Origin: an uncultured Bacteroidota bacterium
GTDB lineage: Bacteria; Bacteroidota; Bacteroidia; Flavobacteriales; Flavobacteriaceae
Length of the DNA: 64,000 nt
Assembly: GCA_913062555.1 (NCBI GenBank)
Contig: CAJXVU010000006.1
Location: forward strand, 51,186-115,185
Direction: 5' to 3'
Shown here piece by piece: positions 48,095-64,000 of the stretch. The translations under genes were made by a program, and so were the position numbers. Every line of letters starts with the position of its first letter. The first letter of the stretch is position 1. The notes beneath the pieces are model-generated. The model made no database searches and was not told the DNA's origin. It saw only the letters and a list, made by a program, of their open reading frames with translations.

Positions 48095-48802
48095 TTAATT
48101 ATTAATTAACTTAATAATTTCTTTATAGGACGCTCCAATCGGAATTTCAATACCGCCAAGCAAGACAACATCTTTTGCGGTTAAAGTCGCAATTTTTTTG
48201 GTATTAATAATATAAGAACGATGGACCCTCAAAAAATAGGAAGGGAGCTTTTGAGCAAAAGTGCTTATTTTATCTTTTGTAATTATGGTCGCATTTACAG
48301 TATGAATTCTCACATAGTCCTTAATACTGTCAATAAACAGAATGTTGTTAAACTCAATTCTAATCATCTTTTTGTTTGAATTAACAAAGATGTGATCTGA
48401 TGTGATATCCATTTCTAATGATTCGCGAGAAGTTGGATGCATGGCGGCATTCAATGCCCTGTATTTATTGATAGATTTATAAAACCGAATAAAGGATATT
48501 GGCTTTAATAAATAATCAATGATATCTAATTCATAACCTTCCAATGCATATTCTCTGTAGGCAGTTGTTAATATCACCTTTGGTTGTATAGTCGTATTCT
48601 TTATGAAGTCGATACCTGTAACTACAGGCATTTGGATATCTAAAAATAGAAGGTCAACGGTAGAATCTTGAAGAAAATGTCCCGCAGCTATAGGGTTGTC
48701 AAATGTTGATACAAGTTCGAGGTCTGGCACTTGCATTATGTGTTTTTCAAGCACCTTAATGGCTAGCGGCTCATCATCTATGACCATACATTTTATTCCC
48801 AT
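48095..48802 (-). CDS. LytTR-family response regulator (module 1)
   Basis: CMVIDDEPLAIKVLEKHI receiver; C-terminal LytTR FLRVHRSYIINTKKI. Confidence 0.95.
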   Translation of the reverse strand: MGIKCMVIDDEPLAIKVLEKHIMQVPDLELVSTFDNPIAAGHFLQDSTVDLLFLDIQMPVVTGIDFIKNTTIQPKVILTTAYREYALEGYELDIIDYLLKPISFIRFYKSINKYRALNAAMHPTSRESLEMDITSDHIFVNSNKKMIRIEFNNILFIDSIKDYVRIHTVNATIITKDKISTFAQKLPSYFLRVHRSYIINTKKIATLTAKDVVLLGGIEIPIGASYKEIIKLINN

Positions 48803-48803
48803 T

Positions 48804-49952
48804 TTACGTTAAATTAATGTTTAATAATACTTGAAAATCTTTATCTGTTTTGGTGCTTTTCAAGTTATAGTTATCTTTATAGTTCAGTTCTAATTGTCGT
48901 TGTGCATTGGAAAATCCAATTCCAGAACGTGATTCATCTTCCTTATTGTCTGGACTATTAGCAAAGATCGTATTAAAAACTTTAAACGAAAGTTTTTCTT
49001 CGTTTGTGGTTAATTCAATTTGAATTACCGAGTCCTTGATAATATTACTCGCCCCGTGTTTAAAAGCGTTTTCGACAAATGAGATCAGGATTAAGGGTGC
49101 GATCATTACGGTGGGACTATGAAGATGGTATGTAAAGTTCAATGTTAACTTATTGCCATACCGTAGCGATTCCAAATCTAAATAATCCTGTATAAAGCCA
49201 ATTTCTTTTGTTAATGGAACTTCATCATCTTTACACTGATAAAGCATATAATCTAACATGTCTGATAGTTTCAAAACAACTTCAGGTGCTTTTTCAGACT
49301 GGTATAATGTTAATGCATATAAATTATTTAAAGTATTGAACAAAAAATGCGGATTTGTTTGTGCCTTTAAAAATTTAAGTTCAGTATTTGCTTTTTCTTT
49401 TTGTAAAACTTCAAGTTGATGACGTTCTTCAAAACGGTCTTTAAATGCCTTCGTCATAAACATTAAAAAAACGAATACATAGACTGATGGAAAATAAACT
49501 ACAGCCAAATGAAATGGGTCTTTTACTATTTCTAGTAAGCTTTCCTCTTCGAAGTATTCAGGAGTAAAAATTTCGGACAAGTACAGCCCTGAAAACCTTG
49601 AGAAAACTAAAAATACATATACAGATATCAAAAAAGAGCATCCAAATTTGAGATATTTCTTTTTAAATAAAAGTTTAGGAACCTGATAATAAACTAAAAA
49701 ATAACTTGCTAATAATTGGGCAGGTAAAAAACTCAAACTACTGATTAGCGTCTTTTTAACACTACCATCATTTAATGCCGCTAATACAGGTAAACTTATA
49801 ACTAATAGAAACCAAAATATGAAATGTGAAACAACCCTATTCTGAATAACCCAATCTATAAAGTTCTTTTTTTTAACCATAGCGTATAAATATATAAAAT
49901 ATGACTCTAGAATTTCTTTAAAAAAGACGAATCTTGATAATCTATTGCCCAA
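48804..49952 (-). CDS. LytS-type sensor histidine kinase (module 1)
   Basis: TM helices; FLKAQTNPHFLFNTLNNLYAL; IGFSNAQRQLELNY. Confidence 0.95.
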   Translation of the reverse strand: MGNRLSRFVFFKEILESYFIYLYAMVKKKNFIDWVIQNRVVSHFIFWFLLVISLPVLAALNDGSVKKTLISSLSFLPAQLLASYFLVYYQVPKLLFKKKYLKFGCSFLISVYVFLVFSRFSGLYLSEIFTPEYFEEESLLEIVKDPFHLAVVYFPSVYVFVFLMFMTKAFKDRFEERHQLEVLQKEKANTELKFLKAQTNPHFLFNTLNNLYALTLYQSEKAPEVVLKLSDMLDYMLYQCKDDEVPLTKEIGFIQDYLDLESLRYGNKLTLNFTYHLHSPTVMIAPLILISFVENAFKHGASNIIKDSVIQIELTTNEEKLSFKVFNTIFANSPDNKEDESRSGIGFSNAQRQLELNYKDNYNLKSTKTDKDFQVLLNINLT

Positions 49953-50141
49953 ACCATGTTTTCTACGGATTTTGAATATTTTCTGTTACTAATAGGTTTA
50001 TTTCCGCTAGTAGCTTTCGTTCATCTATTTTACAATATTTCCATTATCACTTTCGATACGTTTGTCTAAAACTAATATTAAATTGAGGAGTTAGAGGTAT
50101 AGTTGCTTCTAATGAACCGAAAATAATAGAAACTAAAAACT

Positions 50142-50900
50142 ATGAAAAACATAACACGATTAATTTATGTAGCCCTTCTATTAATAACAAGCATTAGCTT
50201 TGGACAGAACCTACCAAAATTTGTGCATGTAGAAGGCGGTACTTTTACTATGGGAGACGAAAGAGGCTTGGGCAATGAAGATCAACGACCTACCCATGAG
50301 GTTACCCTAGAGAGTTTTAATATAAGCCAAACCGAGGTTACCGTAGCCCAATATCGCTATTATTGTGATACCACAGGAGTAGCTATGCCCAAAGAACCTA
50401 GTTGGGGTTGGCAAGACAACCACCCTATGGTAAATGTAAGCTGGCGTGATGCTATGGATTATGCAGATTGGCTTTCTAATGAGCTAGACCAAGAAGTACG
50501 TCTCCCTTATGAGGCAGAATGGGAATATGCAGCACGTGGTGGTAATAAATCTAAAGGTTACAAGTACAGTGGCGCGAATAACATAGCCGATGTGAGTTGG
50601 TATGATGTTAATTCTGACAATACAACAAATGCTGTAGCTGGCAAAAAAGCCAACGAATTAGGCCTTTACGATATGAGCGGTAATACTTTAGAATGGTGCA
50701 TGGATAAATATGGAGGCTATACCAACAGCCCTAAAGATAACCCTAAAGGTGCTACTAAAGGGGATAGAAGGATCATACGTGGTGGTGGATGGCAACTTGA
50801 TCCCACTTTTAGCAGTGTTGCTTTTCGTTACGCAAGTTCCTTTACTGGTGAGTTATATGAGTATTTTGGGTTTCGGGTGGCATCGAATAAAAAAAAATAA
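50142..50900 (+). CDS. secreted SUMF1/FGE-fold protein
   Basis: Signal peptide; GGTFTMGDERGLGNEDQRPTHEVTLESFNISQTEVT; LPYEAEWEYAARGG; GFRVAS. Confidence 0.92.
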   Translation: MKNITRLIYVALLLITSISFGQNLPKFVHVEGGTFTMGDERGLGNEDQRPTHEVTLESFNISQTEVTVAQYRYYCDTTGVAMPKEPSWGWQDNHPMVNVSWRDAMDYADWLSNELDQEVRLPYEAEWEYAARGGNKSKGYKYSGANNIADVSWYDVNSDNTTNAVAGKKANELGLYDMSGNTLEWCMDKYGGYTNSPKDNPKGATKGDRRIIRGGGWQLDPTFSSVAFRYASSFTGELYEYFGFRVASNKKK

Positions 50901-51006
50901 CAAAGAAAGGCTAGCAAAAGCCCAAAAAGGCAATAATCAAATTTAACTAATTTATAAATTGAGGAATCAGTGGTCTGCCAACCTCTAATTAATACATCTA
51001 AAAACA

Positions 51007-51915
51007 ATGCATAAAGCGAATATTATTTTAATACTTTTTTTAGTGTTACTTTTAAATGCCTGCAAAGCGAACAAGCAACAGCAAACAACCAGTAATGCTG
51101 CAACTATTGAAAATTCATATCTTAATCAAACTCTACCAGGTCTAATTCCAGAAATGTTTGCTCCTGGCTTAGTTTCAACCGATAATTGGGAAGTAGGTGG
51201 TGTCTTTACACCAGATTTAAAAGAATTTTATTTCCTCAGAGAAATTGGAGAAAAGGAGGAAGATTTAAAGCAAGTATTCATGATGATTGAACAGAAAGAC
51301 AATGGAAATTGGGAAGAGTCTCAGATTTCAGGTCGGGTAGGTCAGGCTTTTATTTCACCAGATGGTAAAATCATGCATTTAGGAAGAAGGTATAAAGTGC
51401 GTACCGATTCCGGTTGGTCAGAGATTAAAAGGTTAGGGGCTCCTTATGATACCATTCCCATCATGCGAATGACGTCTTCGGCAAAAGGAACCTATGCTTT
51501 TGATGAAGCTGTGGAAGGTAGGAGTATTCTTCGTTATTCACGATTGATTAATGGCAAACGTGAAGAACCCAAACCTTTTCCCAAAGAGATTAACACCGGA
51601 AAGCACAATGCACATCCTTTTATAGCTCCTGATGAATCCTATGTTCTGTGGGACGGTCAACGAGACAATGGTCCCAGGAATGCCGAAATCTATGTGAGTT
51701 TTAAACAACCCAATGGTACATGGGGTCAAGCCATCAAACTGGGTAAAGAGATCAACACTAAAGCTTCAGAATTTGGTGCACGTGTGACCCCCGATGGAAA
51801 ATATTTATTTTTCAATAGGAATACGGGCAAAGTAAAGCCAACAGACAAATACGAAAATACAGATATCTTCTGGGTGGATGCAAAAGTTATTGAAACACTC
51901 AGGCCAAAGGACTAA
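51007..51915 (+). CDS. PD40/TolB-like propeller lipoprotein (paralogue 1)
   Basis: Lipobox LLNAC; FTPDLKEFYFLRE; PFIAPDESYVLWDGQRDNG; ends DIFWVDAKVIETLRPKD. Confidence 0.85.
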   Translation: MHKANIILILFLVLLLNACKANKQQQTTSNAATIENSYLNQTLPGLIPEMFAPGLVSTDNWEVGGVFTPDLKEFYFLREIGEKEEDLKQVFMMIEQKDNGNWEESQISGRVGQAFISPDGKIMHLGRRYKVRTDSGWSEIKRLGAPYDTIPIMRMTSSAKGTYAFDEAVEGRSILRYSRLINGKREEPKPFPKEINTGKHNAHPFIAPDESYVLWDGQRDNGPRNAEIYVSFKQPNGTWGQAIKLGKEINTKASEFGARVTPDGKYLFFNRNTGKVKPTDKYENTDIFWVDAKVIETLRPKD

Positions 51916-51931
51916 TTCATAAAGCAAAACA

Positions 51932-52840
51932 ATGAAAAAAGCACATTTTATTTTAATACTTGTATCGGTACTATTTTTAAATGCCTGTAATACTAAAAAA
52001 GAACAGACAAAAGGGAATGTTGTCTCAACTATAGAAAATCCATATCTAGGGCAGAAGCCACCAAGAATGACGCCTATTCCATTTGCACCTGGACTTGTTT
52101 CTACTGAAATTTATGAATATGATGGTGCATTTACACCTGATATGAAATCATTTTATTTTATCAGAAGAGGGGAAAAAAATATAAAATCAACTTTTTACGA
52201 ATACAAGTACAATGATACCACAGAGGTTTGGGGAAAATCAGTAGTGGCTTCTCCTTGGATTGGACGACCAGTAATTTCTCCAGACGGTAACACCATGCAT
52301 TTAGGTGATCGTTATCTAAAAAGAACTAACTCTGGATGGTCTAAAATACAAAATCTTGAGCCTCCTATTGTAAGTAATGATTCTATGTATATTATGAGGC
52401 TATCTGAGGCTGCTAACGGAACTTATTATTTTGATACTTATAAAGAGGGAGATTCAACATTCCCAATAAGGTATTCACGATTATTAAATGGAAAATATGA
52501 AGAGCCCAAAGCGTTACCCAAAGCTATAAACACTGGTGCTTTTTTAAGTCACCCTTTTATTGCTCCTGATGAATCCTATATATTATATGATGCTCAAAGG
52601 GAAAATGGTTATGGAGATGCAGATATTTATATCAGTTTTAAACAGAAAGATGGTACTTGGGGTAATGGAATTAATTTAGGTGATAAAATAAATACAGATG
52701 CTTGGGAAGCTTCTGCAAGTATAACACCCGATGGCAAATACCTTTTCTTTAGTAGAAATGTAGGCTCTGAAGATTATGAGAATGTCGATATTTTTTGGGT
52801 GGATGCTCAGATTATTGAAACACTCAGGCCTAAAGAATAA
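51932..52840 (+). CDS. PD40/TolB-like propeller lipoprotein (paralogue 2)
   Basis: Lipobox FLNAC; same motif order; ends DIFWVDAQIIETLRPKE. Confidence 0.85.
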   Translation: MKKAHFILILVSVLFLNACNTKKEQTKGNVVSTIENPYLGQKPPRMTPIPFAPGLVSTEIYEYDGAFTPDMKSFYFIRRGEKNIKSTFYEYKYNDTTEVWGKSVVASPWIGRPVISPDGNTMHLGDRYLKRTNSGWSKIQNLEPPIVSNDSMYIMRLSEAANGTYYFDTYKEGDSTFPIRYSRLLNGKYEEPKALPKAINTGAFLSHPFIAPDESYILYDAQRENGYGDADIYISFKQKDGTWGNGINLGDKINTDAWEASASITPDGKYLFFSRNVGSEDYENVDIFWVDAQIIETLRPKE

Positions 52841-52968
52841 TCCATAAAACAAATTGAGCTTCGTGGCCATTAAAAGTTATACTTCTCCCTAAGACCTACA
52901 ATTTTTTAAGAAGACCTCGTATGTTTTTTTATATTTATAGCTTCATTCTAATCTAATGAATCCTTAAA

Positions 52969-53952
52969 ATGAAAAAAAACATTCTTATTGTAATTCTATT
53001 AATCTTTGCAGGATACTTTGGCTACGACCATCTTTCTAATCAAGAAACAAGTTTTAAAAAGGACATCGAGTTTGCAGCGAATACTAATTTTGATTTTGTG
53101 GTAACTCCTATTGCTGAAAATGTTTATAGCATCGTTTCACCATCATTTGGTTTGCCTACCCCTGAAAACAAAGGCTGGAATTCCAATAGTCACTTTGTTG
53201 TTACTAAAAAAGGAGTATTGCTTTTTGATACTGGATCCTCTGAATTAATAGGGAACAAAATTAAAAGCGCCATTAAATCAGTCACTGATCAACCGGTGCG
53301 TTGGGTGATTAATTCCCACAGTCATGCCGATCATTGGCTAGGTAATGCGGCGTTTACAGATACTGGTGCTGAAATTATTTCAAGTAATGCAGCGCTGACA
53401 GCCATGAAAGAGGATGGACAGGGCGCTGTGGCATTTTATTCCCGCGTGACTAAAGGGACAATCGGAGCTACACAACTTGTATATCCGACTTTGTTATTGG
53501 GTAAAGGACAAACGCGTAATTTTGGGGGAGTAGCTGTTGAATTCATTTTCTCTAATGATGGACATTCTCCAGGAGATATTTTGATGTGGTTACCAAAACA
53601 GAAAATCATATTTGGCGGAGATGTATTAAGTTCGGATTGGATGCCGATTATTACAGGCCATGGTAATGTTCCGAATTTTATTAACACCCTATACACTATT
53701 GCAAAGTTAAACCCCACAATCGTTTTAACAGGACACGGTAAAGCCACCACGGTAAAGTCGGTAATACGAGATGCCGATTTATTATCAAGCGTTTGGACAC
53801 AAGTCAAAGCGGATTTTGGAAATGGTAAAAATCCCAATGCAACCCTGTTAGATATCAAAGCAAAACTGGGGCCAAAATATAGACTCTTATATAATGATTT
53901 CGTCACCGAAATTGAGAGACATGTTAAACTGATGTATACATTACAGCAGTAG
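52969..53952 (+). CDS. metallo-beta-lactamase-fold hydrolase
   Basis: Signal/TM N-terminus; VINSHSHADHWLGN (HxHxDH); SNDGHSPGDILMW; LTGHG. Confidence 0.92.
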   Translation: MKKNILIVILLIFAGYFGYDHLSNQETSFKKDIEFAANTNFDFVVTPIAENVYSIVSPSFGLPTPENKGWNSNSHFVVTKKGVLLFDTGSSELIGNKIKSAIKSVTDQPVRWVINSHSHADHWLGNAAFTDTGAEIISSNAALTAMKEDGQGAVAFYSRVTKGTIGATQLVYPTLLLGKGQTRNFGGVAVEFIFSNDGHSPGDILMWLPKQKIIFGGDVLSSDWMPIITGHGNVPNFINTLYTIAKLNPTIVLTGHGKATTVKSVIRDADLLSSVWTQVKADFGNGKNPNATLLDIKAKLGPKYRLLYNDFVTEIERHVKLMYTLQQ

Positions 53953-54021
53953 AAGATTTTCCTAAAAATGAAATGCTTCTAAAACATTGAGAATAAATAT
54001 TTTTCATGGAATCCAAAAAAA

Positions 54022-54087
54022 GAAGCGAAAGTGAAGCTTCACGATTTCTTATGCAATAGATCTTTATGAGTAAATGAATGTAGAATA
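54022..54087. repeat. 66-nt imperfect direct repeat, left copy
   Basis: 56/66 identical by eye to 54963-55028. Confidence 0.8.
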
Positions 54088-54098
54088 CATTAAATAAA

Positions 54099-54791
54099 TT
54101 ATTTATTTACAAATTTCACCACTTTAATTAAATCGTCTTCTTTATTTAAAGATAATTTGTTGTTACTAATATACTTAACAATAGATTCTTGACTAACTTT
54201 ATCTGATTGAAAGAGCTTAGAAAAAGACTTTTTTGACAATTTCATCTTGATTAAATTACTATCACGATATAGATAATATTTTGCCTTCTTAATATATTTA
54301 TTAGTTTTTCTATTAACCATTGGGTTTTTTGATCCTTCTGAATAGATTACACTATAATATCTATAAATTGAAAATTTATCGTTAAAAAGTAATTCGAAAA
54401 TTTGCTCCTCTTTATTGATTTTAAATATTCGAAAAACTTTATCGTTAATTACTATTTTGATTAAGTTTTCGTTATCGAATGTAAAAACAGAATTTTCATC
54501 ATAAAGAGCTTCAAGTTTACCATCATACAAGTTGATGTTTGCTCTTTTTATTTTAACCCTTCCTTTATCTTTTATATAAATAACACCTTCAGTATTCCAA
54601 TTTTCAAAATAATAAGCAGAGCCCTCAGTCTTAGTTCTTGCATTAACAAAACCAACGCCCATATTAACAAAGGCATGGACTCCAAACCCTTGTCTTGTCA
54701 CATTACTTTTATTTGACTCTTTGGCTTTCTCTTGAGCAAATGAAGGCGAAATGAACATAATTTGTATTAATAAAAAAACTATTTTTTTCAT
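54099..54791 (-). CDS. secreted hypothetical protein
   Basis: Signal peptide MKKIVFLLIQIMFISPSFAQ; no family recognised. Confidence 0.65.
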   Translation of the reverse strand: MKKIVFLLIQIMFISPSFAQEKAKESNKSNVTRQGFGVHAFVNMGVGFVNARTKTEGSAYYFENWNTEGVIYIKDKGRVKIKRANINLYDGKLEALYDENSVFTFDNENLIKIVINDKVFRIFKINKEEQIFELLFNDKFSIYRYYSVIYSEGSKNPMVNRKTNKYIKKAKYYLYRDSNLIKMKLSKKSFSKLFQSDKVSQESIVKYISNNKLSLNKEDDLIKVVKFVNK

Positions 54792-54962
54792 AACATTTCT
54801 AAAATTAATTGTACCAATATCTCGTTCAGGTAATTAGCTAACCAATAACAACTTTGTTATAGTTCTTATAGTTGAATTGTTTCTTTTGACTTTAAATATA
54901 TTCAAATATCTATATACAAAGAAAATAATCATGTTTAATTTACATATTACTACTATAGGAGG

Positions 54963-55028
54963 GAAGCCAAAGCAAAGCTTCACGCTTTCTTAAGCAATAG
55001 ATATCCATGAGTAAATGTATGTGGAATA
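54963..55028. repeat. 66-nt imperfect direct repeat, right copy
   Basis: Same orientation as 54022-54087; together they flank the orphan gene. Confidence 0.8.
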
Positions 55029-55154
55029 AAAAAAATTTGCTTAATATTTATTATTAGTATAAATTTATGTCATAACAACTATTCGTTGATAATTAAATTC
55101 CCACTACTCAAATCTAGTATTGAATAAGACTTTCTTCAAAAAATCTTATTTATA

Positions 55155-56849
55155 ATGAAGTCTTTAAAAAGGTCTAAATTTCGTCCGCTTAATTTTTTTA
55201 TTAAAAACAAAAAAACAGCCTCTTTTCTATCTGTTTTTTTAACACTACTATTTTTAAACCTGGTTATAGGTTGCTCATATTATAACGTCAGAAGTTTAAC
55301 AACTAGTTCTGAAACCATAGCAGCTCAAATAGATGAATTCTCTAAAAATCAACAATATGTTATTGTTCATGTTGGGTCAGATATTTGGCATTTAAGTAAC
55401 CTAGAAGTTAATGAAAGTGATAAATCTATAGCAGGTGTTGTTCAAGAACTGGCTTCTAAACACATATCCAAAAAGCCAAGAGAAAGTAAAACAACGCATA
55501 TTTACAAAGGTGGTAAAGACGTTTTAAATGAGGTGCATTTCTATATTACCACAAATACCACACGTAGTATTGGTGATCATACAACTATTCCTTTTTCAGA
55601 AATTAATTCAATTTCTGTAAACGATAAAAATACTGGACGAACAGTCTTAAATGTTGTTGGAGGTGTTGTTGGAACAATAGCTTTAATTTCCATAATTGCT
55701 TTGTTACTTAAGAGTTCCTGTCCGTTTATATATGTCAATAATGGAGAAGAATTTGTTTTTACTGGTGAACTCTATCCGGGAATTTTAACAGCCAATCAAC
55801 AGCGGGATGATTATTTATTACTCCCCAATATAAATGAAGTCAATAATGAATATATAATTAAGATTACTAATGAATTAAAAGAAGTTCAGCATACTGATTT
55901 CGTTCAATTAATGAAGATAAATCATCCCGATAATACAATCGTTTTGCTAGATAAATATGGAAAACCACATACGTTTTCAAATATTATTGCTCCAAATAAT
56001 GTCTTGATAGATGGCTTAAATAAAGATAAGAGTCCTGCATTAACTAAAGACAGCAATTCTTATTTGTTTAATTCAGAAATTAACAGTTCTAGTAGTAAAA
56101 GAAATATTGAACTCGAATTTAATAAGCCTAAGAATGTTGAAAATGGAAAGCTCATGTTAACAGTTAAAAACTCAATGTGGCTCGATTATGCGTTTGGAAA
56201 GTTTAATGAAAAATTTGGTGATTATTATCCGCAATTTCAAAAAGATCAACAAAAAACTTCAAACGAAAAAAGCACGAAATGGATTAACGAACAAAATATT
56301 CCATTGTCTGTGTACTTAAAAACCTCTAATGGTTGGAATTTAATAGATAGAATTAATACCGTTGGTCCAATGGCTTCAAGAGATATTGCAATCCCAATAG
56401 ATTTAAGTAGCGTCATTGGGGAAGAAGTGGTCATTAAACTTGAAACGGGGTTCATGTTTTGGGAAGTCGATTATGCAGGTATTGATTTTACTGAAAATGT
56501 TTCACTAGACATTAAATATATTAGCCCGTATGAGGCTTTGGATGGGCAAAATGAAAATGTTACTGAATTACTATCAGCGATAGATCAAAAATACTTTGTT
56601 CAGCCAAATGTAGGTGATGAAGTTGTGGTTACTTTTAAAATGAATGAAACGAATCCAGGATTAAAAAGTACGTTCTTTTTAAAAAATAGAGGGTATTATA
56701 ATTATTTAAGAAATTATGAAGGAAAGCCGGATTTCCAAAAGCTCAAATTATTTAGAGAAGCTGATGCCTTTACCGATTTTTCAAAATATGAATATGAAGC
56801 ATTAATGGATTATGAAAGTCAATTTTATGTAGCATCAAGCAGTAAATAA
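55155..56849 (+). CDS. large lipoprotein of unknown function
   Basis: Lipobox LVIGC, internal TM then SCPFIYVNNGEEFVFTGELYPG; no enzyme motif seen. Confidence 0.75.
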   Translation: MKSLKRSKFRPLNFFIKNKKTASFLSVFLTLLFLNLVIGCSYYNVRSLTTSSETIAAQIDEFSKNQQYVIVHVGSDIWHLSNLEVNESDKSIAGVVQELASKHISKKPRESKTTHIYKGGKDVLNEVHFYITTNTTRSIGDHTTIPFSEINSISVNDKNTGRTVLNVVGGVVGTIALISIIALLLKSSCPFIYVNNGEEFVFTGELYPGILTANQQRDDYLLLPNINEVNNEYIIKITNELKEVQHTDFVQLMKINHPDNTIVLLDKYGKPHTFSNIIAPNNVLIDGLNKDKSPALTKDSNSYLFNSEINSSSSKRNIELEFNKPKNVENGKLMLTVKNSMWLDYAFGKFNEKFGDYYPQFQKDQQKTSNEKSTKWINEQNIPLSVYLKTSNGWNLIDRINTVGPMASRDIAIPIDLSSVIGEEVVIKLETGFMFWEVDYAGIDFTENVSLDIKYISPYEALDGQNENVTELLSAIDQKYFVQPNVGDEVVVTFKMNETNPGLKSTFFLKNRGYYNYLRNYEGKPDFQKLKLFREADAFTDFSKYEYEALMDYESQFYVASSSK

Positions 56850-56857
56850 AATAAGCC

Positions 56858-58078
56858 ATGATAGCCGAAATTCAAGAAAAAAGAATACCACAAGAAGCAT
56901 TGATGTCAGTACCATTTGACGCTACGGATAATCGTCAAAATATCGCGGGCTTCAGAATGAAATTAATTCATATTAAGCTAAAAATAAGTTTAATAAAAAT
57001 AGCAATACGATGTTATAATAATCCTCTAGATTGGATTAAATCACTTCATTATTTAGTTAAATTAAGACGACGGTTTCTAGGAGATAATAAACTTCAAAAA
57101 TTAGTCTATTCTGGCGGCAAATATTATATGGGACTATATACCCCCGGTTGGAATAGCGCTATTTACGAGCAGTTTATGACTTCTCAGCTTAACGATTTCA
57201 AACCTTTAGATAGTGGCGTTGTAAATAGATTTAATACAATATTTTTAGCCATTACAAAGAAATGTGCTTTGCAATGCGAACATTGTTATGAATGGGATAA
57301 CTTAAATAAGAAAGAGGTTCTATCAGAACCAGAACTTCATAAAATTGTTGAAAAAATTCAAGATAAAGGAGTGAGTCAAATTCATTTATCAGGTGGCGAA
57401 CCATTACTAAAAATGGAAACTCTAATCAATGTTTTAAATCAAGCCAAGAAATCAACCGATTTTTGGGTAGCAACATCAGGATTTAAACTAACTGATAATA
57501 ATGCAAAACGTTTAAAAAAGGCTGGATTAACCGGGGTAATGATTAGTTTAGATCACTTTATTCCTGAAGTTCATAATGACTTCAGGCATTTTAAAGACGC
57601 TTATTATTGGGTGGAAGAGGCCGTGAAAAATGGAAATAATAATGAGTTGGTAACGGTTTTATCACTCTGTGCTACTCGAGATTTTATTTCTGAAGAGAAC
57701 TTAATGTCTTATATGGAATTAGCAAAAAGACTTAAGGTGTCTTTCGTTCAAATTTTGGAGCCGAAAGCAGTGGGACATTATGCCAATAAAGATGTTTCGT
57801 TGCCAACAGACCAAATTAAATTATTGGAAGATTTATTCTTAAAAATGAATTTCAGTACAGAGTATAACACTTATCCAATAATAACATATCACGGTTATTA
57901 TCAGCGTAGGCAAGGTTGTTTTAGTGCTGGAATAAAAGGCATGTATATCGATACAGATGGCGATATGAACGCTTGTCCATTTTGTCACAAGAAAACAGGA
58001 AATGTATTAGACGATGCCTTTGATAAAAACCTAGAAATATTGAAATCTGAAGGCTGTCACAGTTATAATCTCAATTAA
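56858..58078 (+). CDS. radical SAM protein with Cys-rich C-terminus
   Basis: CALQCEHCYEW (CxxxCxxC); HLSGGEPLL; C-terminal GCFSAG...DMNACPFCHKKTG. Confidence 0.92.
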   Translation: MIAEIQEKRIPQEALMSVPFDATDNRQNIAGFRMKLIHIKLKISLIKIAIRCYNNPLDWIKSLHYLVKLRRRFLGDNKLQKLVYSGGKYYMGLYTPGWNSAIYEQFMTSQLNDFKPLDSGVVNRFNTIFLAITKKCALQCEHCYEWDNLNKKEVLSEPELHKIVEKIQDKGVSQIHLSGGEPLLKMETLINVLNQAKKSTDFWVATSGFKLTDNNAKRLKKAGLTGVMISLDHFIPEVHNDFRHFKDAYYWVEEAVKNGNNNELVTVLSLCATRDFISEENLMSYMELAKRLKVSFVQILEPKAVGHYANKDVSLPTDQIKLLEDLFLKMNFSTEYNTYPIITYHGYYQRRQGCFSAGIKGMYIDTDGDMNACPFCHKKTGNVLDDAFDKNLEILKSEGCHSYNLN

Positions 58079-58086
58079 ATACAAGA

Positions 58087-58806
58087 ATGCCTATCAATGA
58101 TTTATCGCATACTGAAATTTGGATTATAGGAACTATCCTATTTATACTTCGCTATGTATTCATAGCTGGGTTATTTTTTTATATCTTATATGTATGGAAA
58201 AAGAATAGATATTCAAGTTTAAAAATTCAAAAGAAATCCCCAATACCTTCTCAAATTAGAAGAGAAGTCATTTATTCCTTGTTGACATTCATTATATATG
58301 GTAGTAGCATTTGGTTATTTTTATTATGGATTGACAATGAAGAAACCAAATTATATACAGCTGTTAGTGACCATGGTATGCTCTATTTTATAACTAGTAT
58401 TTTTTTAATGGTCATTATTCATGATACTTATTTTTACTGGACACATCGATTAATACATCACTCAAAATTATATAAATATATACACAACATACATCATAGT
58501 TTTAAAAGTCCCACGCCTTGGGCTTCATTTGCATTTCATCCTTTTGAAGCAATTATTTCGCTAGGATTTATACCCATAATATTATTTACAATACCATTTC
58601 ACCATATGGCATTAATAGTATTCATAACTTTTTTAACGGTTTACAATATTATTATTCATTTAGGTTATGCTATTCCAAGATTAAGTCAATTCAAATATTC
58701 AAATACCCCAGAGGCTCATGATTATCATCATCTTAATTCTAAAAGCAATTACGGATTATATTTTACATTCTGGGATAAAATAATGGGGACTTATTATACC
58801 AAGTAA
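58087..58806 (+). CDS. sterol desaturase / fatty acid hydroxylase family membrane protein
   Basis: HDTYFYWTHRLIHH, HNIHHSF, HDYHHLNS histidine boxes. Confidence 0.93.
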   Translation: MPINDLSHTEIWIIGTILFILRYVFIAGLFFYILYVWKKNRYSSLKIQKKSPIPSQIRREVIYSLLTFIIYGSSIWLFLLWIDNEETKLYTAVSDHGMLYFITSIFLMVIIHDTYFYWTHRLIHHSKLYKYIHNIHHSFKSPTPWASFAFHPFEAIISLGFIPIILFTIPFHHMALIVFITFLTVYNIIIHLGYAIPRLSQFKYSNTPEAHDYHHLNSKSNYGLYFTFWDKIMGTYYTK

Positions 58807-58845
58807 AATTCAAAAACTCGACCGCATAAAAATCAAATAGATAGA

Positions 58846-58904
58846 GCGAATAAACACTTTTTACACGACGACGCACGTCCGTCAAAGTCTTTTAGCCTAG
58901 GAGG
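58846..58904. repeat. dispersed intergenic repeat, copy 2
   Basis: gcgaataaacactttttacacgac...cctaggagg; compare 39377-39411. Confidence 0.6.
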
Positions 58905-58945
58905 ATAGGAGTGAAGTGGTTATTTGTGGAATTGGAATTACTATT

Positions 58946-59641
58946 TTATGATTTTGCTAAAACCTCCAATTTTTTAAAAACAACAACCTTATACATAGTA
59001 CTGACTGGGACTTTATTATTTTCAATTAACAAATGAGTTTTAGTTGCTTTTGTAACGCTGGTTAAATTGGCAATATATGATTTATGTGTCCGTTGAAAAT
59101 TCTCAGGTAATAAGCTCGTAATATTAATCAATGTTTCAGAGATCAGGTACATTCTTGCATCTGTAAAAATTTTCAAATAATTTCCAAAACTCTGAATATA
59201 CAGAATGGATGCAAATGCAATATTAACAGGCATTCCATCATGTTTTATCTGTAATTCTTCTGCTTCACTATTTTTTTCAGGTTGTGTTATTGTGGATTCT
59301 GAAACTTTGTTTATTGCCTTTAAAAAGCGCTCAAACTTTATAGGTTTCAATAAATAATCTACCACGCCATAGTTATAACTTTCTAAGGCATAGTCAGAAT
59401 AGGCTGTAGTCAAAATAACTTTCGGTGGATTGAGCATAGAACGCAAAATTTCCATCCCAGAAAGTTCTGGCATTTCAATATCTAGAAAGATGAGATCAAG
59501 GGTGTTTTTCTGCGTAAAATTGATAAACTCAATTGGATTCCCTGTACTTAATACCAATTCTAAATTGTCAATTTTAGAACAATACTCTTCGATCACTTTA
59601 CGTGCTAGTATTTCATCATCTACGATTCCAACTTTAATCAT
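58946..59641 (-). CDS. LytTR-family response regulator (module 2)
   Basis: VGIVDDEILARKVIEEYC; LytTR region FQRTHKSYIANLTSV. Confidence 0.95.
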   Translation of the reverse strand: MIKVGIVDDEILARKVIEEYCSKIDNLELVLSTGNPIEFINFTQKNTLDLIFLDIEMPELSGMEILRSMLNPPKVILTTAYSDYALESYNYGVVDYLLKPIKFERFLKAINKVSESTITQPEKNSEAEELQIKHDGMPVNIAFASILYIQSFGNYLKIFTDARMYLISETLINITSLLPENFQRTHKSYIANLTSVTKATKTHLLIENNKVPVSTMYKVVVFKKLEVLAKS

Positions 59642-60650
59642 TTCCAGTTTTTTTTAGTGTTGAAACTGATACATCAATAGATAAATCTAACTGATATATT
59701 GTTTCTCTATCATCAATTTTTAAGAGGTGAGAATTGGGATATAATAGCTTTAAACGTCTTTTTACATTTTCAAGTCCCATTCCTTTTCTTTTAGATGCAG
59801 CAACCATGGGTGGCTTTGAATTCACCACACAAAAATGAAGGGTGTTGTTTTTTATCGCAACAGAAATATCAATTGTACTCTGCTCATTGGTACTTTGAGC
59901 ACCATGTTTAATCGCATTTTCAACAAATGGAATTAGCAACATAGGAGCAATCTTTAAGTCCAACAAGTTTCCATCAATTAAAAATTCTACCGTACATCGT
60001 TTACTCAATCTCTTTTCTTCCAATAACAAATAGTTTTCTATAAATTCTAACTCTTCTTTTAATAAAACGCTGTCTTTTTTAGAACTCTCTAATTGATACC
60101 TCATTAATTCTGAGAGTTGCATAACAAGATCGGGCGTTTCTGGAGATTGCTGTCTGGCTAGTGAATAAATACTATTTAAGGAGTTGAATAAAAAATGAGG
60201 ATTCACCTGCTCTTTTAAATAGGTAAGCTCTTGCTCTTTTTGTAATTTATCTTTCTCAATATTTTTTCTTTGGATGATCATATTTCTTCTTAAAAAAAAA
60301 GCAGCCATACCAGTTCCAGTCGTATACATAAAAAAGAAAAAGAATTTAGAAATACCTGACCAATGTATCGAATTTCCTTTGAAACAAGCACCAATAATTA
60401 TGCTCCCAACAAGTAATACTCCATATAAAAAATAACGTCTCTTATCAAAGACAAAAGGAATGAAAACAAAATGATTTATCCAAATGAGGACCATAATATG
60501 AACAGCATAACTAAGGGCCCAATCAAAATAGATATACGAACTATCAAATTGATCCATATTTATCAATCCACTTAATAGTTCAAGTATGAGTACCAATAAA
60601 AAGGCTCCTATGTTAATGAGTAGTGTAAGCTTTAAAGATTTTTTAATCAT
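59634..60650 (-). CDS. LytS-type sensor histidine kinase (module 2)
   Basis: TYLKEQVNPHFLFNSLNSIYSLARQQ; GMGLENVKRRLKLLYP. Confidence 0.95.
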   Translation of the reverse strand: MIKKSLKLTLLINIGAFLLVLILELLSGLINMDQFDSSYIYFDWALSYAVHIMVLIWINHFVFIPFVFDKRRYFLYGVLLVGSIIIGACFKGNSIHWSGISKFFFFFMYTTGTGMAAFFLRRNMIIQRKNIEKDKLQKEQELTYLKEQVNPHFLFNSLNSIYSLARQQSPETPDLVMQLSELMRYQLESSKKDSVLLKEELEFIENYLLLEEKRLSKRCTVEFLIDGNLLDLKIAPMLLIPFVENAIKHGAQSTNEQSTIDISVAIKNNTLHFCVVNSKPPMVAASKRKGMGLENVKRRLKLLYPNSHLLKIDDRETIYQLDLSIDVSVSTLKKTGND

Positions 60651-60881
60651 AACCCCTTTTAGTAAAGATTTAACAAAGATACTATCAATACATACAAACT
60701 TCCATAATTTATTTACAAAAGCGGTATATCAATGACCAAATGGTTTCATCATTTAATGTTTGTGTTTATCAAGTTTAAAATCTTAAAGATGGATTATAAT
60801 TTACTTTTATCCAATATTTAATTTAAGCAAAGCCATAAAACCTATTAATAATCAATCGTTCAATTAAAAATTTTATAATTA

Positions 60882-62711
60882 ATGAAAAATATTATCTCAG
60901 TCCTCTTCATCATAATTCTTTTTCAATCATGTTCAGAAGTATCAAATACTGATACTACAACTGGTTTAATAAAAAAGGTAGAAACTGGTCTCACAACTCG
61001 GGTATACATAAAGGGCGATTCGACATGGTCCATAGAAGAACGTATGAAACACTACGGAATTCCGGGAGCCAGTATTGCAGTAATCCATAATGGTGAAATT
61101 GCATGGACAAAAGCTTACGGTGTGATGGATAAGGAAAGTCAAACTCCAGTAACAACACAAACCCTCTTCCAGGCAGCGGCTACTAGTATGCCGGTAACGG
61201 CCTATGGTGCATTACGTCTTGTAGAAGAAAAGAAACTCAGCTTAGATGAAAATATTAACAGCTATTTAAAATCCTGGAAAGTACCAGAAAATGATTTTAC
61301 CAAAGAAAAGAAAGTCACCATAAAAAATATTTTAAATCATTCTGCCGGAATACATCCTCGTGGAACGGGACGATATAGTATAAATGAAACAATTCCAACT
61401 CTTGTAGAGATACTAAACGGAACTCCTCCAGCTATAAATGACCCGATTACTGTAAATAAAGAGCCTGGTGAAAGTGTTCGTTTTGCATATGCTAGCTATG
61501 TGCCTATTCAACAAATGATGCTGGATGTTGACGGGAAAACCTTCCCAGAAATCATGCATGAACTCGTGTTACAACCCTTAGAAATGAACAACAGTACGTT
61601 TAATCAATCGCTCACAGCAGCCCAATTAAAGAAGGTAGCAACAGGTTATTTACAAGATGGCACCATGGTAGAGGGCAGAAGAAAGATCTATCCTGCATTG
61701 GCTTCAAATGGGTTATGGACAACTGCCGAGGACTATGCAAAATTTTTAAGCAATGTACAGCAAACACTGAAAGGTAAGAGCACTAAAGGATTATCGAAAG
61801 AGCTAACAGAATTAATGGGTACACCATATGGAGTGAGTAATTCTGGTTGGTCATTCACACTCGGGTTAGGGTTTCAGCTTTTTAATAGAAACGATGACAT
61901 CTACTTAAGGCATCACGGATGGAATACAGGTTTTTATGCTGAGATAATGGCTCATAGAGACAAAGGTTATGGTGTGGTAGTAATGACCAATTCTACGTTT
62001 CCGGATTTTAATGCTGAAGTGATTCGTGCTGTGGCCCAGGTCTATGATTGGGCTAATTTTGTTCCGGTACATCAAAAGATAGAAATTGAACCATCATATG
62101 CGGATGAAATTACCGGTAGATACCAATCCGACGATGTAATTGTAAAAATCTTTCAAAAGGACAATCAATTGTTTTACAAAAACATACTTGATGAACAGGG
62201 AGTAGAACTCATTAAAGTCTCGGATAGCCTTTTCGTTCGAAGAAATTCCAGTCGATTTATTCAGTTTAAACCAGATTCTAAACAGGGAGCAGTCAATTTA
62301 CAGTATCTGAATCGAAACGATGGAGCAATAATTTCAACCTTAGTTAAGGTCGCTAATAATAAAAAAAGTCCAGTAGAATTCCTTCTTGAAGACGACTTTG
62401 AAAACGCACTTATTGCCTATAAAAAATTAAAGGAGCTCGACCCCAACCATCCAACTGTTACCGAAGACTACATAAATGATATTGGTTACGATTTTTTCCA
62501 CGGGGATAGAATGACATTATCACTAAACACTTTCAAAGTTAATATGATGCTCTATCCTGATAGCTATAAAGTATATGATAGTTATGCAGAAGCCTGTATG
62601 AAAGCAGGCGACAATGATTTGGCAATTTTAAATTATTCGAAATCACTTGAATTAAACCCTCAAAATAACCTTGCAAGGAGTAAGCTTGTAGAATTGCAAA
62701 AAGCTGAATAA
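60882..62711 (+). CDS. secreted serine beta-lactamase-fold protein with C-terminal TPR; catalytic motif lost
   Basis: Lipoprotein-like N-terminus; YGIPGASIAVIHNGEIAWTKAYGV; TLFQAAATSMPVTA; TPR NDLAILNYSKSLELNPQN. Confidence 0.9.
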   Translation: MKNIISVLFIIILFQSCSEVSNTDTTTGLIKKVETGLTTRVYIKGDSTWSIEERMKHYGIPGASIAVIHNGEIAWTKAYGVMDKESQTPVTTQTLFQAAATSMPVTAYGALRLVEEKKLSLDENINSYLKSWKVPENDFTKEKKVTIKNILNHSAGIHPRGTGRYSINETIPTLVEILNGTPPAINDPITVNKEPGESVRFAYASYVPIQQMMLDVDGKTFPEIMHELVLQPLEMNNSTFNQSLTAAQLKKVATGYLQDGTMVEGRRKIYPALASNGLWTTAEDYAKFLSNVQQTLKGKSTKGLSKELTELMGTPYGVSNSGWSFTLGLGFQLFNRNDDIYLRHHGWNTGFYAEIMAHRDKGYGVVVMTNSTFPDFNAEVIRAVAQVYDWANFVPVHQKIEIEPSYADEITGRYQSDDVIVKIFQKDNQLFYKNILDEQGVELIKVSDSLFVRRNSSRFIQFKPDSKQGAVNLQYLNRNDGAIISTLVKVANNKKSPVEFLLEDDFENALIAYKKLKELDPNHPTVTEDYINDIGYDFFHGDRMTLSLNTFKVNMMLYPDSYKVYDSYAEACMKAGDNDLAILNYSKSLELNPQNNLARSKLVELQKAE

Positions 62712-62752
62712 AAACATGTCAAAAAAAGAATTCAATTAAAAAAGTATAACTA

Positions 62753-64000
62753 ATGAAAACCATTAAACTTGTAGTACTAACAATTGCTATATCGCTAAAC
62801 ACAGGCTATGCTCAAGAAAATAGTGCAAACGATGCTGGCCATCCAACTTTAGAAGATCGCTATTTTGGAGAAAAGCCACCGGGCTTAATTCCTAAACTTT
62901 TTGCTCCTAACATTGTCTCTCCAGAAGGGTTTTTTGAAGGTGGCAATTTTTCACCAGATATGAAGGAGTTCTATTTCTCTAGGAAAAATGGGAAATACGA
63001 AAAACGCACATTTTTTGTTATTCGATATGAAAATAATCGTTGGGGACACGAATCTGAGACCGATATAAAATGGCCACAATTCTCTGAGGATGGTACTATG
63101 ATATACGGTGGAAAGGAATATAGGGAACGAACTACCAATGGTTGGTCGGAACCCAAAAGTCAAGGAACATTCTTGAAAGACCAGGCACATGGTATCTCGC
63201 TTTCAGCAAATGGTACCTATTATTTTGGTTTTCGAGAAAAGGAAGGCAGGGGATATGGTTCTATCCGCTATTCACGCTTGATAAACGGCAAACGTGAAAA
63301 CCCAGTAAAAATGAGCAAGGCGATTAACACAGGAAGATTTATTGCCCATCCCTTCATTGCTCCAGATGAATCCTATTTAATGTGGGATTCTGAGAAAGAT
63401 GGCGGAAATGGTGGTAGCGACTGTTATATTAGTTTCAGGCAGAAAGATGGTTCATGGGGAGCAGCTATTAACTTGGGTGAACAAATAAATACAGCATCAG
63501 ATGAAAGTAGCCCAAGTGTAACACCCGATGGAAAATATTTAGGCTTTTCGAGGGGTGATTGGGTGGTTAAAAAAGATGGAAGTACCAATTGGGTAGGAAA
63601 AAGTTATTGGGTAGATGCTCAGATTATTGAGACCCTTAGGGCTAAATCATCGCCCTATACAATTGCTTATAATTCAATAGTAACCGGTTATGTAGAAATT
63701 TATTTAGGTGATGCAGAAGGTACATCAACTATTAAAAGTACAAATGCGAAAGGTGGCTACTTGGCTTGGTCTCCTGACGGAAAACAATTTGCTTTTTATC
63801 ACAAATATGATGACAGAAAAACATGGTCCATTCATACCATGAATATTGATGGTACGAATAGGCAGCGTTTAACTCATGAAAAAAACAAATGGGATAATTC
63901 ACCAGCATGGTCGCCTGATGGCTCAAAAATTGTTTTTGCAAGAGAATATTGGGATTCGGAAAAAAATTGGCATCCAGAAATTTGGATTATGAATGCAGAT
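62753..64000 (+). CDS. PD40/TolB-like propeller protein (paralogue 3), truncated by window end
   Basis: Open frame from ATG 62753 to window end; GEKPPGLIPKLFAPNIVSPEG, FIAPDESYLMWD, SYWVDAQIIETLRAK, then additional WSPDGKQFAF / WSPDGSKIVFA blades. Confidence 0.85.
   Translation, partial: MKTIKLVVLTIAISLNTGYAQENSANDAGHPTLEDRYFGEKPPGLIPKLFAPNIVSPEGFFEGGNFSPDMKEFYFSRKNGKYEKRTFFVIRYENNRWGHESETDIKWPQFSEDGTMIYGGKEYRERTTNGWSEPKSQGTFLKDQAHGISLSANGTYYFGFREKEGRGYGSIRYSRLINGKRENPVKMSKAINTGRFIAHPFIAPDESYLMWDSEKDGGNGGSDCYISFRQKDGSWGAAINLGEQINTASDESSPSVTPDGKYLGFSRGDWVVKKDGSTNWVGKSYWVDAQIIETLRAKSSPYTIAYNSIVTGYVEIYLGDAEGTSTIKSTNAKGGYLAWSPDGKQFAFYHKYDDRKTWSIHTMNIDGTNRQRLTHEKNKWDNSPAWSPDGSKIVFAREYWDSEKNWHPEIWIMNAD

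Follow-up and report, generated by a model that had tools for sequence, protein, structure and literature searches.

Does a LytS/LytTR pair that faces secreted proteins across a shared intergenic region control these proteins, or do the proteins also sense on its behalf? The question arises twice in the 64,000-nt stretch analysed here (the window), which is C6:51186-115185 of a 3.82 Mb draft genome and whose end is the contig end. The initial annotation had read the two loci as an envelope sensing system, in which a secreted pseudo-enzyme and surface propellers work with the cognate pair.

Layout and copies of the module

All the ORFs of both loci were found at the coordinates given by the initial annotation. 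The features are listed below.

48095..48802, minus strand: LytTR response regulator, module A (Pfam LytTR 8e-19, Response_reg 3e-15)
48804..49952, minus strand: LytS-type histidine kinase, module A (PF06580 4e-26; ORF opens at TTG)
49979..50006, plus strand: conserved element of the HK358/382 clade, TTTTCTGTTACTAATAGGTTTATTTCCG (clade alignment, 16 loci)
50057..50064, plus strand: TACGTTTG, a candidate -7 box that fits the Bacteroidota pattern TAnnTTTG (GATAnGTTTGT conserved in the HK358/382 clade)
50142..50900, plus strand: secreted FGE-like protein of the C-type-lectin-fold family (PF03781 7e-51; no FGE Cys pair)
51007..51915, plus strand: propeller 1, probable lipoprotein, LNAC (PD40; propeller alignments)
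51932..52840, plus strand: propeller 2, probable lipoprotein (PD40; AlphaFold2 pLDDT 89.9)
52969..53952, plus strand: metallo-beta-lactamase-fold protein (PF00753 4e-18; gap 128 nt), probably the last gene of operon A
58946..59641, minus strand: LytTR response regulator, module B (Pfam LytTR and Response_reg)
59634..60650, minus strand: LytS-type kinase, module B (PF06580 3e-25)
60725..60753, plus strand: conserved element of the HK338 clade, TATATCAATGACCAAATGGTTTCATCATT (identical in the C60 copy; kept in 5 loci)
60882..62711, plus strand: pseudo-beta-lactamase lipoprotein, 609 aa (PF00144 fold, SxxK lost; C-terminal TPR-like repeats from weak TPR matches)
62753..64000, plus strand: propeller joined to PD40/TolB-like repeats (PD40; cut by the contig end)

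At both loci a PF06580 kinase adjoins a Response_reg-LytTR regulator, and the two pairs are thus members of the LytS/LytTR class, on the minus strand as described initially. In module A the pair lies opposite the genes at 50142, 51007, 51932 and 52969, and in module B opposite the gene at 60882 and the propeller/TolB protein cut at 64000. The divergent secreted proteins also proved to be where they had been placed, with an FGE-sulfatase domain at 50142-50900 and PF00144 at 60882-62711. The intergenic distance of about 190-230 nt needs a correction for module A: since the 358-aa homologues begin at M25, the true kinase start is probably 49880, and the intergenic region would be nearer 260 nt. 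According to the module tables, the metallo-beta-lactamase-fold gene is not conserved in other modules.

That the propellers belong to one specific family was borne out, with PD40 in all three and the quoted motifs common to all; the other two have 57% and 44% identity to 51007-51915. There is indeed a propeller at 62753, but it is joined to PD40/TolB-type repeats instead of standing alone. The two loci do share one layout, but the source genome has three copies, the third full one being on contig C60 (L021), where LytTR and LytS genes closely like those of module B are found with a pseudo-beta-lactamase and an esterase-propeller fusion. Further propellers are an orphan on C9 (L023) and contig-end-cut copies on C88 and C23. 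Five source-genome propellers have a readable upstream region, and four of them are in modules. Between modules A and B lie a radical-SAM-like protein (56858-58078) and then a sterol-desaturase-like membrane protein (58087-58806), labels taken from a reading of the sequence only.

The propeller family and its neighbours

The propeller is about 300 aa long, and the AlphaFold2 model of 51932..52840 has five blades by strand count. No PDB sequence relative of the propeller was found. Foldseek with this model ranked TolB first by E-value at a TM-score of about 0.5, and TIGR02800 scored 53 bits for 62753-64000 against a cut-off of 343, with no score for the other propellers. TolB identity was rejected on these two results and on the missing TolB architecture. 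The module propeller resembles TolB/PD40 propellers and PorE-like proteins in its PD40 repeats and in its best Foldseek E-values (TolB), but differs in having five blades and about 300 aa, without the TolB N-terminal domain or an OmpA domain.

A scan of genome contigs gave 470 propeller relatives, and the best 79 of these 470 loci were examined (53 Bacteroidota, 26 proteobacterial); neighbouring ORFs were called mechanically and labelled with HMMs built in this analysis. Among these best 79, the propeller operon is divergent from a LytTR/LytS pair in 31 of the 53 Bacteroidota loci, and none of the 26 proteobacterial propellers is next to LytS/LytTR. From the LytTR density of the source genome (31 in 3.82 Mb), with base rates taken from listed positions and retrieved regions of that genome, about 6.5% would be expected; the binomial p of about 2e-23 ignores kinship and the selection of the 80 best matches, and reads as "far above chance" only. 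The proposed adjacency is therefore strong in Bacteroidota, where the other 22 of 53 loci have no module. The module-bearing genera include Aquimarina, Leptobacterium, Flagellimonas, Allomuricauda, Kordia and Tenacibaculum, with Roseivirga outside Flavobacteriaceae.

In six gammaproteobacterial loci (L040, L052, L075, L094, L097, L100) a divergent winged-helix regulator of about 700 aa adjoins the propeller operon; the one regulator that was scanned has a weak PD40 match. This is the same layout with another regulator type.

Propellers outside modules (L030, L046, L076, L081, L091, L093 and similar) often stand in strings of short genes that all run in one direction, and intergenic repeats recur there, e.g. 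CCAACAA...TTCATTGCT in two loci of different species. Integron cassettes were considered for these string-like loci and rejected, as a strict attC search found almost nothing; among 26 genomes, only Pseudoalteromonas luteoviolacea has an integron integrase over the curated cut-off.

Conserved intergenic elements and predicted control in trans

The kinases fall into three clades, and conservation of the intergenic regions follows these clades. The initial annotation had proposed a search of 49953-50141 and 60651-60881 for shared direct repeats, and a clear one exists, but in clade 1 (kinases of about 560 aa), while those of the two clades in the window are suggestive at most. The clade-1 repeat is TAGAGCAGTT-N10-TAGAGCAGTT, whose self-similarity peaks at offset 20 (16.6) and does not exceed 7.5 elsewhere among the offsets tested, 11-44. 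Among 301 genomes of the family, a set that overlaps the first locus set by a few genomes, all 11 clade-1 kinases of 49% identity or more have it, at a distance of 15-51 nt from the start of their ORF, and two more distant kinases (41% and 37% identity) lack it. The genes facing these 11 kinases are propeller, TolB, serine-hydrolase or BLac genes in 8 cases; TonB/outer-membrane-like genes lie opposite the clade-1 kinase in the source genome (on C7) and in two further genomes.

The conserved elements of HK358/382 and HK338, the two clades in the window, differ from that of clade 1 and have no clear direct repeat. In the HK358/382 element there is an imperfect 21-bp-spaced repeat, TTTCTGTTA (49980) and TTTCCGCTA (50001), and offset 21 ranks third among the offsets; a direct repeat in the module A element is thus no more than suggestive. 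The element at 49979-50006 is unique in the source genome at up to 3 mismatches (control 0), and that at 60725-60753 has one further match with 3 mismatches (control 0). When the three clade patterns were run on 84 loci with up to 4 mismatches, they gave 41 matches and the reversed patterns 0; since many of the 84 loci had gone into making the patterns, matches within modules are not independent, and the whole-genome scans are the independent tests. A sigma-70 promoter scan returned fewer sites than in shuffles and was uninformative.

Published LytTR sites consist of two repeats of 9-11 nt with spacers of 11-13 nt (PMC4847170). The clade-1 repeat resembles them in general form, with a 20-bp period and a spacer of 10-11 depending on the repeat boundary. 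The module's element matches no described LytTR element in the literature compared. Like YpdA/YpdB and other LytS/LytTR systems, the module has a PF06580 kinase beside a Response_reg and LytTR regulator and, clearly so in clade 1, a direct-repeat element upstream of the presumed target; it differs in the target itself, a divergent operon that encodes secreted lipoproteins of the propeller and (pseudo-)hydrolase kinds.

One propeller carries the clade-1 element away from any module. At the C9 orphan, TAGAGCAGTTCAATAGATTGTAGAGCAGTA (the clade-1 repeat with 1 mismatch) lies 204 nt upstream, together with more clade-1 promoter sequence. Among the source-genome propellers whose upstream region can be read, this one alone lacks a LytTR neighbour, its contig being free of LytTR genes for 60 kb around it; the clade-1 kinase/regulator pair of the genome is on C7, facing an outer-membrane-receptor-like gene. 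Control in trans, and with it a small regulon, is therefore predicted. Leptobacterium also has an orphan element, ahead of an alpha/beta-hydrolase-like gene with propellers beside it. Such sites were found only at L023 and L028 among the 22 module-less Bacteroidota loci, and control in trans would be an exception, because other unlinked propellers show no element.

Hydrolase partners and the role of the module

The constant part of the operon is the propeller, and its partner is swappable: a TolB-like propeller, a PF00144 serine hydrolase of about 400 aa, a PF00756 esterase, an FGE-like protein or the 609-aa beta-lactamase-TPR protein. In many loci the propeller is fused to the esterase or serine hydrolase. 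By a regex count, SxxK is intact in 32 of 37 module serine hydrolases, so modules are not generally pseudo-enzymatic; as most carry such hydrolases or esterases, the claim that a secreted pseudo-enzyme is a general part of the module had to be abandoned. The narrower claim, that both enzyme-fold proteins in the window are without catalytic residues, holds for the beta-lactamase-like protein (ATSM in place of SxxK, and YxN also lost). For the 50142 protein the missing FGE Cys pair is weak evidence, because much of the FGE fold family is without it.

In alignment the 50142 protein has no Cys at either FGE active-site position, and other module copies keep at most the second; its identification as a formylglycine-generating enzyme was rejected for this reason. 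It shares the PF03781 domain with the FGE/PvdO/GldK/TvpA fold but differs in having neither FGE Cys, and the best PDB match, its nearest solved relative, is variable protein 1 of Treponema denticola, a variable binding protein. It is better read as a putative binder than as an oxidase.

The 60882-62711 protein has the PF00144 fold by profile (E 3e-48), and PDB sequence relatives were found; its structure model (pLDDT 55.9) was too low for use. In every readable module copy of this 609-aa family SxxK is replaced (ATSM, TIGM, LLGM and similar), YxN is lost too, and most copies have a conserved Met at the old Lys position. With the SxxK nucleophile motif absent, identity as a class C beta-lactamase or PF00144 enzyme was rejected. 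When the protein was searched alone in the 301 family genomes, with the propeller not required, 9 matches passed E 1e-90. SxxK is absent in 6 of them (2 being the source-genome copies), all 6 adjoining LytS and/or propeller-module genes; it is kept in the other 3 (47-52% identity), which adjoin neither. In a tree that holds one genome twice under two names (L087 and L142), the inactive proteins form one clade (99/88) with the intact sisters outside. The family is under purifying selection, with dN/dS against the window copy of about 0.15-0.30 (NG86). One loss of catalysis followed by conservation is the simplest reading. Relative to the PF00144 family of beta-lactamases, DD-peptidases and esterases, the 609-aa protein keeps the fold and, as in the SxxK-intact sisters, the C-terminal TPR-like repeats, but it has lost both motifs and has so far been found only in LytS/propeller modules. 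Because the active site was lost once and the protein was kept, it probably serves as a binding protein.

We consider it fairly probable that a two-component system controls a surface module of hydrolase and propeller at each locus, and that some of the hydrolases have turned into binding proteins. A LytS kinase phosphorylates its LytTR regulator. Judging from conservation, the regulator would bind the element of its clade between the divergent genes (in the best-resolved clade this lies 15-51 nt upstream of the kinase ORF) and would control the divergent operon and probably its own genes too. The operon would then deliver secreted lipoproteins, presumably to the surface, as a constant propeller and a swappable partner. 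Because it is often fused to esterase or serine hydrolase, the propeller most likely positions or binds substrate for this partner. In module B the hydrolase slot holds the altered beta-lactamase fold, most likely a ligand-binding protein, and in module A the slot would be filled by the FGE-like binder.

Regulation of the operon by its pair is much better supported than sensing through the pair. Signalling to the cognate LytS by a pseudo-enzyme and propellers that have bound a ligand outside the cell seems unlikely. The single catalytic loss coincides with recruitment to LytS/propeller modules and the FGE-like protein resembles binding proteins, as this signalling would have it, but clade-1 kinases have a large extracellular-looking N-terminal part of their own, hydrolases are intact in most modules, and the pairing of kinase and cargo is loose. 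It may also be entertained, though we regard it as doubtful, that a single ancestral catalytic loss made a ligand-binding co-receptor out of a secreted hydrolase, and that this protein, with the propeller, reports the former substrate to a dedicated LytS/LytTR pair.

The modules might also be the ordinary layout of the family: LytS/LytTR pairs would face any secreted gene under their control, and the propellers would be one such cargo among many, without a joint function. Many Flavobacteriaceae pairs have secreted or outer-membrane proteins opposite them, and PF00144 hydrolases are frequent among these. In the source genome 17 of 23 readable pairs are divergent from their neighbour within 450 nt, and 13 of these 17 neighbours have a signal-like N-terminus by a crude rule that 69 of 130 background ORFs also satisfy; 13 of 44 PF00144 genes are within 3 kb of LytTR against 2.1 expected (six-fold, p 7e-8). 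The propeller module is therefore one branch of a wider association of LytS/LytTR with secreted hydrolases, and because these pairs often face secreted proteins of any kind, a link between this cargo and the signal would be putative. Nevertheless, members of this one propeller family accompany three kinase clades, are fused to enzymes and, in gammaproteobacteria, lie opposite another type of regulator, so the cargo travels as a unit, and we judge the absence of a joint function to be quite unlikely. Very improbable is that the propellers are mobile accessory genes whose LytTR link reflects shared transfer: they do keep about 55-63% identity across phyla and occur in string-like loci, but orientation, spacing and promoter element are conserved and the strict scan gave no integron attC signal.

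Forty-four PF00144 genes are very many for a 3.8 Mb genome. Related LytS kinases (L165-L169, L186) face ankyrin-like secreted proteins, followed in several loci by a PF00144 gene, which is another recurrent cargo. An anti-phage defence system was rejected, with no PADLOC match for six proteins. No account of this module was found in the open-access literature, where absence is weak evidence.

Marine Flavobacteriaceae thus carry many copies of a swappable cassette, with LytS/LytTR opposite a propeller-hydrolase operon across a shared promoter with a conserved element. For a class of regulators that is abundant yet little described (about 30 LytTR genes in the source genome), this provides a cargo, a candidate DNA-binding element and a predicted target in trans, and the conserved element makes the regulon prediction testable. 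The 609-aa family adds a case, supported by a tree, in which a serine hydrolase lost its catalytic function as it was recruited into a regulated surface module. If the co-receptor reading were true, a dead enzyme of a pathway would have been built into the signalling system that regulates this same pathway.
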